Assembly: GCA_021783235.1 (NCBI GenBank) | Contig: JAJXUD010000014.1 | Location: 1-64,000 of the forward strand | Length of the DNA: 64,000 bases | Source: Myxococcales bacterium | GTDB taxonomy: Bacteria; Myxococcota; Myxococcia; Myxococcales; JAKAPL01 | Reading direction: 5' to 3' | Shown here: positions 1 to 6,690 of the stretch, one piece after another | How positions within the stretch are numbered: position 1 is the stretch's first letter | Layout: every line of letters begins with the position of its first letter | Translations under genes and position numbers: made by a program | Notes under the pieces: model-generated | Databases searched by the model: none | Told to the model about the DNA's origin: nothing | Seen by the model: only the letters and a program-made list of their open reading frames with translations

Positions 1-162
1 GAGGCGGCGCCACCTGCTCCATCCGCCGCCGCCTAGTAACACGCGGCCCACCGCCTGATCTACGCCAACCCTCTGGATCTACGCCCGGATTCCGCCTTCT
101 CGTGTGCCCAGGTTTGTCAAAGTCGGGACTACGCCTGGGGCGCGAACTCCGAGCTGCTCGGG

Positions 163-2295
163 ATGACGTACCCGGACGGCGAGCAGGTGACGTACGACTA
201 CCCGAGCGCCGGGGGGATGGCGCCGGTGCCGCGGCCGAGCGAGGTCGACGTGGGCTACCAGGGCGGGCAGTCGGTGATCGCGAGCGGGGTGAGCTACTTC
301 TCGGACGGGGTGGTGGCCTCGCTGACGTACGGCAACGGGAGCCTGCGGCAGCTCACGCGCAACAAGCGGGGCGAGTGGACCCACCTGGTGTCGGGCCCGG
401 CGGCGGCGCCGGTGCTCGACCAGGCCTACCAGTTCGACGGGAACGGGATGGGGCTCGTGACCGCCGTCCACTGGTTCGAGAACCAGTACAACGCCTGGGA
501 CTGGACGTTCGGCTACGACGCGCTCAATCGGCTGACGAACTACACCACGAACGTGACGGGAACGGCGCAGAGCTGGGCGTGGACGTACGACGAGGTGGGC
601 AACCGGCTGTCGGACAGCTACAACGGAGGCACGCCGAACGCGTACACGTACGATTCGAGCGGCGCGACGAGCCAGCTTTCCTCGGCGGACGGCGTCAACT
701 GGAGCTACGACGCCAACGGGAACGTTCAGGGGGCAACCCCTGGGATTGACTATGTAGCGTCTGCTTACGACACGCGGAATCGCTACTCAGGGTTCGAATC
801 TTACAACATCTTCACGGGGTGGCTCGACGACGAGGATTCTCGCAGCTACGACGCCCATGGTCGCCTCTGGCAGGACACGACGGGTGTTTCACAGGCCAAC
901 TGGACGCAGTACTACTACGACCTCCGCGGCCGCATCTTGCAGGAGTACTCGTACAGCGGCCAGCAGGTGAACGGCGCGCCGGCCTACCAGGTGATCGATC
1001 ACTTCTACCTGCGCGAGGGCGCGGGCGAGGTGGGGCGGCTCGTGCGGATGTACGAGGAGCTCACGACCGGCGTGTACGCCTTCGTCGATCAGGACCTGCA
1101 CTACGTCCACGAGGACTACCGCCACTCGCCGTTCGCGATCGAGGGATACGTGGAGAAGGGGCTCGTCTGGGAGGGCGAGCTCGACCCCTTCGCGAACATG
1201 GTCGCCCAGGGCCTCCCCGGCCCGGACGGCAAGATCGGGACCTCGGACGACACGGCCGCGCTGACGAGCCAGGTCTACAGCTCGATGAAGAGCCGCATGC
1301 AGTACGGCAACTACTTCACGAGCATGGGCCGCAACAACTGGCGGGGTCAGTACGGCGAGATGGGCAGCGGCATGGGCGACAGCCTCCTGGACATCGGAGG
1401 CCCGTCGAGCTACGCCCCGAACGGCGGCCCCGACACGCTCCTGTCGATCGGCGGCAGCGGGAACGCCCACGGCGGCTCGCCGTGGAGCCAAGGGCTCGGC
1501 GGCGCGGGGAGCTTCTCCGGGGGCCCGATGACCGGGAACGCCGGGGGAGGCTCCGGCTGGAGCCAGAACCTCGGCGGGGCGAGCGGCCTCACCAACCCCG
1601 GCAGCGGCAACCCCTTCAGCCAACTCGGCGGCGGCGGCCTCCCCTACAGCGGCCTCTTCAACGCCGGAGGCGTGAACCAGTCCCCGCTCCAGACCAACGG
1701 CGCCCTCATCGCGGGAGGGCAGGGGCTCGTGTCGGATGGCTCAAGCTCCGGCTTCATCGTCCCCTTCGAAAGTTCGGATGATCCCTCCGATCCGTCTTTT
1801 TTTGGAGGCGGAGACGGATCCTCGGGCGCCAGTTCGGCGCCGAACGAGGGGTCCTCGCCCACTCCGGCGCCGAACGAGGGGTCCTCGCCCACTCCGACGC
1901 CGGCTGACGCTGTCTCGCCTCCCTCCTCGCCATCGGGCGGGGCGAATTCAGGCAATACGGGCGGCCAATTCAATGGGCCGTTCTGCGTCGGCACGCCCGC
2001 CAAGTCGGTCTCCTCCTCGGGTCAGCCATCTAGGCAATTCGGTGTCGTCTGCGTCGGCCGTTGGGAACCCGGCGATGACGATGGCCAGATCTCTGCGGTG
2101 CCCGTCCAAGTGGTCTTGGGCCCAAAGCTCGACGTCATGCCATCAGACAACGCGTCTGGTGGCGGTGCTGTGGATCCAAGCTGGGTCATCGGGCGGGTAT
2201 GTGAACCCGGCGACGATTCCACTTGGGTATCGGCAGCCTCGCCGAGCGAGATGCGTGGGCCCTATGGCGGGGGCGCGCGGGGGGACAATCTGTGA
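163..2295 (+). CDS. RHS/YD-repeat protein, C-terminal part (5'-truncated)
   Basis: This 710-aa ORF encodes YD repeats of the RHS family, large surface or secreted proteins that often carry variable toxic C-termini. Repeats such as FGYDALNRLTNY, WTYDEVGNRL, YDANGNV and YYYDLRGRI lie at about residues 115-270. RHS-like sequence (YAWGANSELLG) continues in frame upstream of the chosen ATG, up to stops at 34-39, so the gene has lost its N-terminal region, including any signal peptide, and may be an orphan tip. After a DPFANM motif (canonical would be DPFGN) the protein becomes Gly/Ser/Pro-rich with a duplicated 10-aa APNEGSSPTP unit. The last 110 residues match nothing I recognise and could be a specific tip. 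The usual RHS autocleavage motif (DPxGL-like) is not visible. Confidence 0.7.
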   Translation: MTYPDGEQVTYDYPSAGGMAPVPRPSEVDVGYQGGQSVIASGVSYFSDGVVASLTYGNGSLRQLTRNKRGEWTHLVSGPAAAPVLDQAYQFDGNGMGLVTAVHWFENQYNAWDWTFGYDALNRLTNYTTNVTGTAQSWAWTYDEVGNRLSDSYNGGTPNAYTYDSSGATSQLSSADGVNWSYDANGNVQGATPGIDYVASAYDTRNRYSGFESYNIFTGWLDDEDSRSYDAHGRLWQDTTGVSQANWTQYYYDLRGRILQEYSYSGQQVNGAPAYQVIDHFYLREGAGEVGRLVRMYEELTTGVYAFVDQDLHYVHEDYRHSPFAIEGYVEKGLVWEGELDPFANMVAQGLPGPDGKIGTSDDTAALTSQVYSSMKSRMQYGNYFTSMGRNNWRGQYGEMGSGMGDSLLDIGGPSSYAPNGGPDTLLSIGGSGNAHGGSPWSQGLGGAGSFSGGPMTGNAGGGSGWSQNLGGASGLTNPGSGNPFSQLGGGGLPYSGLFNAGGVNQSPLQTNGALIAGGQGLVSDGSSSGFIVPFESSDDPSDPSFFGGGDGSSGASSAPNEGSSPTPAPNEGSSPTPTPADAVSPPSSPSGGANSGNTGGQFNGPFCVGTPAKSVSSSGQPSRQFGVVCVGRWEPGDDDGQISAVPVQVVLGPKLDVMPSDNASGGGAVDPSWVIGRVCEPGDDSTWVSAASPSEMRGPYGGGARGDNL
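179..284 (+). repeat. RHS sequence repeat, copy 1
   Basis: Encodes MAPVPRPSEVDVGYQGGQSVIA inside the RHS gene. A degenerate second copy lies at 3779-3871, with about 15 bases missing near its left end. The two copies share long identical runs such as gatggcgccggtgccgcggc. Confidence 0.8.
1835..1894 (+). repeat. 30-bp tandem direct repeat (2 copies)
   Basis: Two adjacent identical 30-bp units (1835-1864 and 1865-1894) encode APNEGSSPTP twice in the low-complexity tail of the RHS protein. This is slippage-type length variation within the coding region. Confidence 0.85.
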
Positions 2296-2340
2296 GCACG
2301 ACGGCGTGCTCCTGCCTGCGGTGTCGCCTCGAAGAGGAAC

Positions 2341-3768
2341 GTGCGCTTGGTTGAAAGACACCGCTTCGCGAGCTTGCGGGTGAACCTGCGCGGGCTCCTC
2401 GTGGGGCTCGCGATTAGCTGGGCCGGCTGCAGCCACGGGACGGTGCGGCCGCCCTCCTCGAACGATCGAACGCTCGCGGAGCGGGTGCGGGCCTTCCAGG
2501 CGCGGCTGGCGCGGGATGGTTCGAAGGCGTGGCCGGGCTTCAAGCTGGTGCCCGGGACGTTCGTCGTCATCGACGAGCACCAGGCCGAGTGCTTCGGGGC
2601 CGACTGTCCGGCGCCGTTCCGACAGGAGGGGGGAGTGGCCGGAAGACCGTTTTGCTTCAAGTATGTCTTCCCAGACGAAGAGGCGTGGGACTGGACGGAG
2701 GTGCCGCCAGCGCCCGCGGAACGAACGGCGATCGAGAGATCGACGGCGACTGAGACCTACGCGACGGGCAGGCTCCCGTTCGAGCTCGCGATGGCGGAAG
2801 ACGCCTTTGATCGGTTCGTCGGTGGTTGGCCCACGCAAGGGGAGCGGATCGTCGGGCTCTTCTTTCTCGGGTTCAGGCAACTCCCCTTGTCCGAGCCGGG
2901 GCGACTTGAGGAGGCCAGGAGCGAGGAAAAGATCCTCTCGTCTATCCTGAGGGCGCGGGCCGACGAGCGGCTCGTCCCGTCCGCGGCGTGGGCGAAGATC
3001 AGCGAGCGCCTTGCGGCGCTGCCCCACGGCGACGACGAGGAACGCCTGACCACGTACCTGGGCCTGGATCGCTACTTCGCCGCCCGGGTCATCGAAGGGA
3101 GGGAGCGGGCGGCCTCGTCCGTCGCCGCAGACCTGGCCGCGGGACTGGGCGACCTGTGGCCGGAGTACTGGCTCCTCTACCAGAGGCCGTTCGTCGTCGG
3201 AGAGGCCCTCGCCGTCATGCTCGACGGCCTGGAGCCGGGCTGGAAGAGGACCTTCGCCACCGATCGCGTGACGCTCGCCGAGAAGGCGCGCGCTCGGATC
3301 GCGGGCCTTGGGACGAGCACGGAAGGCCGGCGGGCGAGCCCGTGGGTGAGGTCGTTCTCACCGGAGAACCAAGGCGGCGAGGAGTGCGAGCAGGTCTCGA
3401 GCCCGGGCTCGGCCATCGTGCTTGTCGCCGGTCGCCACGGCGACCGGTACTTCTTCACGCCCCTTCGTGCGACGAGCGACCCGCGGTTGACCGCGAAGGC
3501 GCTCGGCGACGCCTTTGTGCTCGGCCCGGGGTACGCCGCGCGCCTCTCCGGCCGGGTCCAGGCGGACGTGGCCACGCGGGAGGCCTGCCTGCACCTGGAT
3601 GGGAAGAGGGCCATCGAAGCCGTCGCGCGGGCGCTGGCCTCGATCCCTCCGAACGAGCCCGCGAAGCTTCGCTTCGAGACCCCTCAGCTCGGGATCGAGA
3701 GCTCGAAGGCGAAGGTGACGTCGCTGCCCTCGGGCCGAGGCTGGCGGATCGAGTTCTCGCCGCCGTGA
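2341..3768 (+). CDS. Putative lipoprotein, RHS-associated paralogue A
   Basis: 475 aa starting at GTG behind GAAGAGGA. A basic N-terminus and hydrophobic stretch (LVGLAISWAGC) end in a lipobox, so export and lipidation are likely. I recognise no named domain. It is a clear paralogue of the gene at 3897-5357: both have a KAWPGFKL/RAWPGLAL block near the N-terminus, a DLWPExW motif near residue 275 and similar length. It starts 45 nt after the RHS tip, the usual position of a cognate immunity or accessory protein, but it is longer than most immunity proteins, so that role is inference. An alternative GTG at 2380 would give a shorter signal peptide. Confidence 0.7.
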   Translation: MRLVERHRFASLRVNLRGLLVGLAISWAGCSHGTVRPPSSNDRTLAERVRAFQARLARDGSKAWPGFKLVPGTFVVIDEHQAECFGADCPAPFRQEGGVAGRPFCFKYVFPDEEAWDWTEVPPAPAERTAIERSTATETYATGRLPFELAMAEDAFDRFVGGWPTQGERIVGLFFLGFRQLPLSEPGRLEEARSEEKILSSILRARADERLVPSAAWAKISERLAALPHGDDEERLTTYLGLDRYFAARVIEGRERAASSVAADLAAGLGDLWPEYWLLYQRPFVVGEALAVMLDGLEPGWKRTFATDRVTLAEKARARIAGLGTSTEGRRASPWVRSFSPENQGGEECEQVSSPGSAIVLVAGRHGDRYFFTPLRATSDPRLTAKALGDAFVLGPGYAARLSGRVQADVATREACLHLDGKRAIEAVARALASIPPNEPAKLRFETPQLGIESSKAKVTSLPSGRGWRIEFSPP

Positions 3769-3778
3769 GTGAATGCGA

Positions 3779-3871
3779 CGAGCAGGTGGGCAGCGCCGGA
3801 CGGATGGCGCCGGTGCCGCGGCCGGGCGAGACCGACGTGGGCCACCAGGGCGGGCAGTCGGTCATCGCGAG
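3779..3871 (+). pseudogene. RHS fragment, copy 2 (remnant)
   Basis: This short stretch between the two paralogous secreted proteins translates as GRMAPVPRPGETDVGHQGGQSVIA, nearly identical to residues in the RHS gene at 179-284. It has no start codon or RBS of its own and runs straight into the N-terminal region of the next gene. It looks like a scar left by duplication or recombination between RHS tips. Confidence 0.75.
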
Positions 3872-3896
3872 GAGGAGGAGCCGGAGGCGACTTCCG

Positions 3897-5357
3897 GTGA
3901 AGGTCGCGCGCGTGGCTGCACCTCTCTCGATCTGGTGGGCGATCTCCGCCCTCGCCTCCCCACCCCCAGGGGTGGTCCCGAGGATGGTTCAGCCTCCGGA
4001 GGGCGCGGTCGAGAGCGCTCGGCAGGTTCACGATTGGCTCGAGGGGGCCGCCGCGGCGCAACGACGCGCTTGGCCTGGCTTGGCGCTGGAGAGGCCGGTG
4101 GTCATCGCCAGCGACTCGTTCAGCCTGCTGTTCGACGCCGCGCCGCTCGAAGGGTTCATTCCACTCGAGGGGCGTGCGTGCCCTTGCTGGCGGCCGGAGG
4201 GCAGTCGAATCGGGCCTCGCCGCAACGCGAGAGTCTGGATCTTCTCGAACCACAGAGCCTGGAGGCCATGGTCGGAGGACGAGACCGCCTCGTTCGCGGC
4301 GAAACCGGACGCCCTGGTGGCGCTGGTCGTTCCATGGGTCGCGGATCCCGGGGCCGTACGCGTCGATCTCTTGGTGTCACTCTTTCGGATGGCGGTGAGC
4401 GGCTCCCCCCTGGAGGACAGCGGTCCGGCTCTGCTCGCACGGTTGAGGTCGAGCCGACCCGACGCGGAGGCCGTGGGATCGGATCTCCTGAAGGAACGGC
4501 GGTGGCTCGCCGATGCCTTGCGTTCCCCTCCGGGGACGCCGCAGCGCTGGAGAGCCATCTGGAACTGGCAGGCCGAGCGGCATCTCCTCCGAGACGAGGG
4601 CGTGATCGACCGGCTGGTCGAGGCGAGCGAGCGATGGGCGGGACTGGAGTGGCTGTTCTACCTCGATGCCACCGAAGGAGAGGGGAACGCCCGAGATCGC
4701 GAGCTCAGGCTTGCCGGGGCGCTCGAGGCCGAGCCGAGAGATCTCTGGCCGGAGGCGTGGTTCGGTCAACGGAGGTCGGTGGAGACCGGGCTCGCGATGC
4801 TGTTGCTCATCGAGGATCTCGCTCCGCGAACGATGCACACCGGAGGACGTTACTTCGGGGTGCAAAAACTCGATCGACTGCTTGGGGGAACCTCGACGTG
4901 GATCCGCCGTCCCGGGCTGGAGAGAGAGGCCCTCATGAGCTCGATGGAGGTCCGGGCGAGGATCGGGGAGCCGCCGCCGCCATTTCGTCCATTCGCCGCG
5001 GTGGATTTCGACGCCTCGCTCCGGGAGCTGGAAGGCCAGGCTCGCGCGGTGGTTCGGACCAAGCTCGGCGATGGTCGAGGGGGAGACGTCCTGTTCGATC
5101 GCGCGTGGGGCATCGGAGCCGAGAGCATCGTCATCGGAGAGGTGACCCTTTGGAACGAAACGGATGCGCTGGTCTGGAACGGGCTGGCCGCTGCCGATTC
5201 CAGCCCTGGAAACCCATGGATAGATCTCTTCGCCTTCTCGGGGAGAGGCGCGAGCGGCGGGAGGCCCGACAACTTGAGCCTTCCTCCCGGGGCGAAGCTA
5301 ACGAACGGACCGGGGAACCGCTGGACTCTCGAACTTCCACGGGCCGAGGCGCGGTGA
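3897..5357 (+). CDS. Secreted protein, RHS-associated paralogue B
   Basis: 486 aa. The track ORF opens at 2988, but the first part overlaps paralogue A and the RHS scar. I chose GTG 3897 because GGAGG lies 9 nt upstream and a clean signal peptide follows (VKVARVAAPLSIWWAISALA). It is paralogous to 2341-3768 (RAWPGLALE and DLWPEAWF blocks in equivalent places). No catalytic motif or known domain was recognised. The order RHS tip, paralogue A, RHS scar, paralogue B suggests duplication of a tip-plus-partner module. The function is unknown. Confidence 0.7.
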   Translation: MKVARVAAPLSIWWAISALASPPPGVVPRMVQPPEGAVESARQVHDWLEGAAAAQRRAWPGLALERPVVIASDSFSLLFDAAPLEGFIPLEGRACPCWRPEGSRIGPRRNARVWIFSNHRAWRPWSEDETASFAAKPDALVALVVPWVADPGAVRVDLLVSLFRMAVSGSPLEDSGPALLARLRSSRPDAEAVGSDLLKERRWLADALRSPPGTPQRWRAIWNWQAERHLLRDEGVIDRLVEASERWAGLEWLFYLDATEGEGNARDRELRLAGALEAEPRDLWPEAWFGQRRSVETGLAMLLLIEDLAPRTMHTGGRYFGVQKLDRLLGGTSTWIRRPGLEREALMSSMEVRARIGEPPPPFRPFAAVDFDASLRELEGQARAVVRTKLGDGRGGDVLFDRAWGIGAESIVIGEVTLWNETDALVWNGLAAADSSPGNPWIDLFAFSGRGASGGRPDNLSLPPGAKLTNGPGNRWTLELPRAEAR

Positions 5358-5423: not shown

Positions 5424-6572
5424 ATGACCGCCAGCGTGCTGGGGCTGCTGCTCATGTTCTCATCGGGCGTCTCCTTGCGGGGCGCTGCCGATGCCGTGGC
5501 GGTCTGCGACCTGAACGGAGACGGCCGACCGGACGTGGCGGTGGCGGTGAGCGGTAGCTGGGAATGGGCGCTGCTCATCAACGAGGGCGAGGGGCGGCTC
5601 CGCCAGCCGGTCTATTCGAAGGCGGGGACGGTCCCCGTCGCGATCGCTTGCGCGGACCTCTCGGGGAGAGGGCGATCGGACGTGGTGTTGATCCCAATGG
5701 CAGCCAAGCGAGGGTGGGTCGAGCAGAACCTTGGCGTTCGCTACGGCGAGGGGAACGGCTTCGAGAGCAAGCCGTTCGGCAATGCCGCCGGGATGTCGGG
5801 CGTGGCGGCCGCCGATCTGAACCGAGATGGCCGCCTCGATCTCGCCGTGACGAACGCGGCCACGGACTCGTTGGAACTCTTCTTCGGCTTGGGGAGCGGG
5901 ATGCTCGTGGAGCCCGACTGGGAGGCCTCGGGCTGCGGCGCGTCGATCAAAGAGGCGAGCAGCCCCTCGCGATGCTACGCGACGGGAAAATCCCCGGAGG
6001 CCGTCGCCGTGGGCGACTTCAACGGCGACGGCAAGCCGGATCTGGCGGTGGCGAACGGCCTCGACGCGACGGTGGGGATCTTCCTGAACAAGGGCGACGG
6101 GACGTTCCGCGACATGGTTGCCTACCCGGTGGGAAAGGGGCCGATGTGGCTCGCGGTGGGGGACTTCGACGGGGACGGCAAGCCGGACCTCGCGGTCGCT
6201 GACTTCTACGGCGAGGACGAGCACGGGCGGCTGAGCCTCCTCCGGGGGAAGGGCGACGGGACGTTCGAGCCGGAGCTGAAGCTTGCGGCGGGGCCGGCGC
6301 CGGTGGCGGTGGTGTCGGCGGACTTCGACGGGGACGGGAGGCCGGACCTGGCGGTGGCGGAGAACGGCGGCGGCGTGGGGAAGACGGTGACGGTCCTGCG
6401 GGGGCTCGGGGGGATGAAGTTCGCGGCGCCGGTGGAGGTCGAGGTGCCGCAGAGCCCGAACGCGCTGGCGGTGGGCGACATGGACGGCAACGGCAAGCCG
6501 GACCTGGTCGTGGCGACGACGCAGGGGCTGGTGATCCTGCACAACCTCGGGGCGAAGGGGTTCGAGCGGTAG
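5424..6572 (+). CDS. Secreted FG-GAP/VCBS repeat protein
   Basis: 382 aa with a short signal peptide (VLGLLLMFSSGVSL). It contains seven calcium-loop FG-GAP units of the form (D/N)xNxDGxxD: DLNGDGRPD, DLSGRGRSD, DLNRDGRLD, DFNGDGKPD, DFDGDGKPD, DFDGDGRPD and DMDGNGKPD. Seven units are what an integrin-alpha-type seven-bladed propeller needs, so the domain seems complete. The second unit has lost its acidic residues. The start at ATG 5424 is preceded by GGAGAGGAG. Such proteins are usually extracellular or outer-surface binding modules; the ligand is unknown. It follows the RHS-associated genes on the same strand. Confidence 0.8.
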   Translation: MTASVLGLLLMFSSGVSLRGAADAVAVCDLNGDGRPDVAVAVSGSWEWALLINEGEGRLRQPVYSKAGTVPVAIACADLSGRGRSDVVLIPMAAKRGWVEQNLGVRYGEGNGFESKPFGNAAGMSGVAAADLNRDGRLDLAVTNAATDSLELFFGLGSGMLVEPDWEASGCGASIKEASSPSRCYATGKSPEAVAVGDFNGDGKPDLAVANGLDATVGIFLNKGDGTFRDMVAYPVGKGPMWLAVGDFDGDGKPDLAVADFYGEDEHGRLSLLRGKGDGTFEPELKLAAGPAPVAVVSADFDGDGRPDLAVAENGGGVGKTVTVLRGLGGMKFAAPVEVEVPQSPNALAVGDMDGNGKPDLVVATTQGLVILHNLGAKGFER

Positions 6573-6690
6573 GGCGTGTCAGCGAGCAGCGCCCTGTGGC
6601 GTCTCCCGCCCGGCTCGTCGCGTCCCGGGGCCGGCCTGGGGCCAGTGTGCCCCGAATGCCGAAACGCGCCGTTCTTTCCGGCGGGGCAGG

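Follow-up and report, generated by a model that had tools for sequence, protein, structure and literature searches.

When a gene directly follows a displaced piece of an RHS gene, are the two a toxin and its immunity protein, or has RHS-type rearrangement carried something else? The question is raised by the beginning of a 64,000-nucleotide stretch of Myxococcales DNA (the window), in which a truncated RHS gene, a gene for an exported protein, a degenerate RHS copy and a second gene for an exported protein follow one another. It covers the first 64 kb of contig C61, which is 71 kb long and has its end at base 1; the source genome (G000) is a draft in 133 contigs. The reading favoured here, with a probability of roughly 60%, is that this region forms the right end of an array in which RHS, pseudopeptidase, in some cassettes peptidase, and FG-GAP genes recur in tandem; its cassettes would have been reshuffled, and it would hold no cognate toxin/immunity pair. 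The features of the window module are as follows.

128..2295, + strand: RHS (YD-repeat) gene fragment, 5'-truncated; open from base 40, ATG at 163
2068..2292, + strand: C-terminal 75 residues of the RHS fragment, a conserved tip element present four times in the genome
2341..3768, + strand: partner A1, exported protein or lipoprotein, putative pseudopeptidase paralogue, 475 aa, no HExxH; paralogues A2 and A3
about 3773..3890, + strand: decayed RHS scar; 3792-3871 is 91% identical to 205-284
3897..5357, + strand: partner B1, secreted putative pseudopeptidase paralogue, 486 aa, no HExxH; paralogues B2 and B3
5424..6572, + strand: FG-GAP (beta-propeller type) exported protein, last gene of the module; PF13517, E = 7e-55
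5973..6575, + strand: homogenised 3' half of the FG-GAP gene, near-identical between modules

The RHS piece, A1, the scar and B1 all lie where the original prediction had placed them, and its notion of a duplicated RHS-associated module with truncated or displaced RHS pieces is borne out by the RHS copies and the scar. Its limits for the module, 163-5357, hold less well: RHS homology begins at 128, and the end at 5357 is too early. The FG-GAP gene at 5424-6572 belongs to the module, as its counterparts also come after partner genes on contig C16, twice on contig C12, and in a second genome (G002). Between the end of B1 (5357) and the start of the FG-GAP gene (5424) the HExxH gene found in other modules is absent, so that only dead paralogues are kept in the window module.

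The window RHS frame is open from 40 to 2295, and stop codons occupy bases 34-39. Since stops lie just upstream of base 128, where similarity to the other RHS copies sets in, this copy is 5'-truncated. Bases 1-127 match none of the other RHS copies and may mark a true breakpoint or a contig-end artefact. Two other RHS scars, on C16 and C99, begin at the equivalent of base 139, close to the window's 128, which suggests that a breakpoint near bases 128-139 is real and recurrent. The fragment is 91% identical to the C16 copy over 128-1312 and matches PF05593 at residues 118-157. Its start corresponds to residue ~1098 of a full-length relative in another genome (G001), which begins about 1,000 codons earlier and has a signal peptide; the window thus holds a piece of RHS core that lacks both the N-terminus and an export signal, as is characteristic of orphan rhs-CT modules. 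The match between scar and fragment is far above chance (E = 9e-26). The scar has a small internal deletion; longer versions, 96-97% identical, occur on C16 and C99, and the RHS start scar on C99 contains frame breaks. Scars also reach into coding sequence elsewhere in the genome. Paralogue D (L029:4672-4720) opens with the fused RHS start sequence VEMGNWVYDHDGA, so that the scar supplies its N-terminus, read from the first start codon. A2 and A3 end in RHS scar read in another frame, which provides their final codons and stop (L028 ~5718-5742; L003 ~1860-1884).

The other three copies of the RHS tip are 46-76% identical to that of the window. Each of the four stands directly 5' of a partner-family gene; in the three cases where the gap was measured, it spans 2-74 bases. 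This gene is of the dead type all four times, insofar as F, which is truncated, can be read. Purifying selection acts on the tip region, with dN/dS of 0.32-0.43. The partners after the four tips range from 76% down to about 21% identity, and tips that share 59% identity precede partners that share about 21% (A1 and B3). Among the other 144 genomes of the order the tip had no strong match; weak matches were found in G008, G024 and G054 (E = 0.004-0.008). The DPxG core end is absent from the window RHS and present in RHS of the same genome on C63 (three times) and C50. On C63 a separate classical RHS locus consists of three successive pieces (L030: 2-1312, 1665-3749 and 4207-6057), each with a DPxG core end and its own, different tip; the first of these tips contains YDEVIVHELSHAED, a metallopeptidase-like motif. 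Treating the RHS genes of C61, C63, C50, C103 and C116 as one family was rejected, their YD repeats being only about 25-36% identical.

The two partners are large exported proteins of no catalogued family, as had been predicted. A1 has a GTG start and a cysteine at position 30 after a hydrophobic stretch, in a weak lipobox (WAGC), while B1 has a signal peptide without a lipobox cysteine. A1 is 76% identical to A2 and 69% to A3; B1 is 33-35% identical to B2 and B3. The predicted kinship of A and B also stands: they are genuine paralogues, if distant ones (BLASTP E = 1e-5; profile-profile 95.4%, E = 1.8e-8). Neither A1 nor B1 had a match above cut-off in Pfam, NCBIfam, PHROG or PADLOC, a Kelch_2 match of A1 (E = 0.23) being at chance level, and a search of the PDB by sequence gave nothing, or a meaningless receptor match at E = 2.

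Their ancestry can nevertheless be traced, so the expectation of an unknown family holds for the catalogues and fails for descent, which points to a zinc-metallopeptidase-like family. The neighbouring paralogues of types C and E carry HExFH and, some 80 residues further on, ExxEGxA; in the active group the two motifs lie about 75-90 residues apart. The B profile matches these HExxH paralogues (99.85%, E = 1e-30), and they in turn match distant homologues with profile E values of about 1e-22 (1.3e-22). Ten such relatives (L045-L054) were found among 84,980 species genomes, in Bacillaceae, Chloroflexi (Anaerolineales), Acidimicrobiia, Bacteroidales, Treponema and Leifsonia. All of them retain the zinc-peptidase signature, and across 13 aligned active-type members H145, E146, F148, H149, E228, G229, A231, Y278 and G281 are invariant. 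None of the ten belongs to a Pfam or NCBIfam family either: the XopG match of a Neobacillus homologue (E = 0.075, chance level) and the DHH_CID match of another relative (E = 0.11) are under the cut-off, and a homologue on a Priestia plasmid is annotated only as hypothetical. The family is rare nearer home, with members in 2 of 145 genomes of the order and 2 strong matches among 195 genomes of the phylum, where G155 and G180 gave weak profile matches.

By sequence, the partners belong to an uncatalogued HExxH...ExxEGxA zinc-metallopeptidase-like family. Going by its motifs, the conserved-site members would be catalytic and the fold would be that of a zincin; no solved or curated relative supports a peptidase fold. 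Two AlphaFold runs, on alignments of 12-13 sequences that excluded the closest paralogues (C12, C16, C99), were poor overall (pLDDT 55 and 52), with good confidence only around the central helices, and Foldseek returned nothing with E <= 0.001 for these poor models. The model of the G002 homologue places both motifs on helices of locally good pLDDT, in a structure that is poor overall and has no PDB match. A peptidase-like family spread over several phyla is thus absent from the curated libraries searched. It splits cleanly into conserved-site and dead paralogues that are kept side by side.

No HExxH occurs in A1, B1 or any other A, B or D paralogue. In A1-A3, B1-B3, D and the first gene of the G002 pair both histidines are lost, and A1 and B1 are probably catalytically dead members of the family. 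A single branch of the tree sets the dead paralogues apart (support 81/79, 86% of bootstraps), and the smallest number of changes needed is 1. Their grouping suggests one ancestral loss of HExxH, probably before the two genera split, at moderate support. With dN/dS values of 0.33-0.35 for A, 0.29 and 0.45 for B and 0.35 for C, dead and conserved-site genes are constrained alike.

The source genome contains at least four modules, on contigs broken at repeats. C16 (reverse strand) reads RHS tip, A2, RHS scar, B2, C1, FG-GAP, RHS; C12 reads RHS tip, B3, C2, FG-GAP, D, E, FG-GAP; and C99 reads FG-GAP end, RHS start scar, A3, scar with tip, F. These contigs are short and most of their ends lie inside repeated parts, so the array is spread over draft contigs with an incomplete module order. 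Repeated elements standing in tandem on single contigs indicate true duplication; with two RHS segments on C16 and two FG-GAP genes on C12, a strain-mixture artefact was rejected as the sole cause. In G002 (DAIDIT010000062.1) a dead paralogue, an HExxH paralogue and an FG-GAP gene succeed one another as on C16 and C12, and this order is therefore kept in two genera. No RHS tip lies in the 160 bases available upstream of the G002 pair. The G002 FG-GAP gene (L044:3059-4143) is divided between two reading frames, which may reflect a frameshift or an error in sequencing. Repeats of another kind were also seen: close to the end of C61 (L031:10665-11412) and inside C116 (L094:9388-10134) lie ~85-base tandem repeats rich in inverted motifs that resemble CTGATCGGTCGA, and C132 opens with repetitive sequence (L096:1-540) of similar appearance.

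Sequence identity between the modules is a mosaic. RHS segments are 91-97% identical (RHS scars 96-97%) and FG-GAP 3' halves 92-100%, whereas FG-GAP 5' halves are mostly 43-65% identical (82% in one 100-base bin), that of the window being about 43-64% identical to the two other copies, and the partner genes roughly 55-80%, with about 50-80% for the cargo. Near-identical ends around divergent cassettes are the expected trace of recombination or gene conversion between them, with the cargo being reshuffled; the mechanism itself is deduced from this pattern. The complete modules have a dead paralogue (B or D type) immediately before a zinc-site paralogue (C or E type), and then the FG-GAP protein. 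In the favoured reading, recombination or gene conversion through the RHS segments and the FG-GAP 3' halves would reshuffle this cargo and leave RHS scars behind. In the likeliest working model, drawn from gene order only, the products would form an extracytoplasmic peptidase complex. Its dead paralogue would be a subunit for regulation or binding, and the surface scaffold or adhesive parts would be provided by the FG-GAP protein together with the conserved RHS tip. More tentatively, the whole could be a surface system that shuffles cassettes: RHS-style recombination would diversify an exported peptidase/pseudopeptidase pair with its FG-GAP protein rather than toxins, and the dead paralogue would be a conserved working subunit. 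This extension is possible but less likely than not.

A model of displaced RHS toxin tips, each with its cognate immunity protein in the manner of orphan rhs-CT/rhsI modules, would explain why RHS core fragments without an N-terminus are carried along, as they are in those modules (PMC3967940), and why a partner gene comes directly after the tip. The original prediction had read the tips as displaced RHS tips with cognate partners, immunity being one of the roles it offered; a toxin/immunity pair is now very unlikely. The tips are conserved and carry neither a catalogued toxin domain nor a DPxG boundary, related tips precede unrelated subfamilies, and the partners are peptidase-derived exported proteins of about 475 aa that do not vary with the tip. 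Nor do homologues always follow RHS tips, as that prediction had wanted checked: a regular expression and tblastn with four RHS proteins detected no YD-repeat gene in flanks of up to 10 kb around the ten distant homologues. Homologues occurring mostly away from RHS genes had been named beforehand as the outcome that would speak against the idea, and that is largely what was found. A role of the window proteins as immunity proteins for an RHS toxin is not supported.

The partners may still have a delivery or scaffold role alongside RHS. If the exported dead paralogue served the RHS protein specifically, as chaperone, surface receptor or delivery factor, with the tip as its docking element, the invariable position of the four tips just before a partner-family gene, apparently of the dead type, and the purifying selection on the tip region would follow naturally. 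However, conserved tips stand before very different subfamilies (A, B and F), and the two components occur apart: in G001, a draft, an RHS gene cut at the contig end was found and no member of the partner family, and in G002, a draft 69% complete, the partner pair was found and neither RHS nor tip. We consider this arrangement unlikely, though a better prospect than a toxin/immunity pair. Simple decay, by which fragments and paralogues persist without constraint in a repeat-rich region, would suit the truncated RHS gene, the decayed scar, the missing HExxH gene and the frame breaks on C99. It is hard to reconcile with complete partner genes open over 450-530 codons, their dN/dS of about 0.3-0.45, and intact frames in the tips and the FG-GAP genes of the source genome, and is likewise very unlikely. 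The reshuffled peptidase-type array remains the preferred account.

Gluzincins are HExxH zinc metallopeptidases with a downstream glutamate. The C and E paralogues show this combination, and in the active group HExFH and ExxEGxA are invariant or nearly so; unlike gluzincins, A and B lack both histidines and no curated family or PDB sequence matches, the fold being suggested by motifs.

SitA proteins of myxobacteria are polymorphic lipoprotein toxins with immunity genes (PMC5562445). Compared from the literature only, they resemble the partners in being lipoprotein families with signs of repeated duplication, but SitA joins a conserved lipoprotein N-terminal part to a variable C-terminal toxin, whereas the partner family is homologous over its whole length. 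In polymorphic toxin systems (Zhang et al. 2012, PMC3482391) RHS filaments likewise co-occur with HExxH peptidases. Their peptidase, however, forms part of the toxin polypeptide itself, as a domain that is either the releasing peptidase or the C-terminal toxin; in the window array it is a protein of its own, exported separately and accompanied by a dead paralogue.

The closest parallel in architecture is with orphan rhs-CT modules, in which variable toxins lie behind a DPxG boundary (Koskiniemi et al. 2014, PMC3967940). Shared features are a 5'-truncated RHS core with a tip, repeated downstream, with another gene directly after, and recombination through the shared core. Where those modules have small variable immunity proteins, the window array has a conserved tip without DPxG, followed by large exported peptidase-derived proteins and an FG-GAP protein. 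RHS-type rearrangement may thus move cargo other than toxin/immunity pairs, so that an RHS fragment plus the next gene is not automatically a toxin plus its immunity protein.
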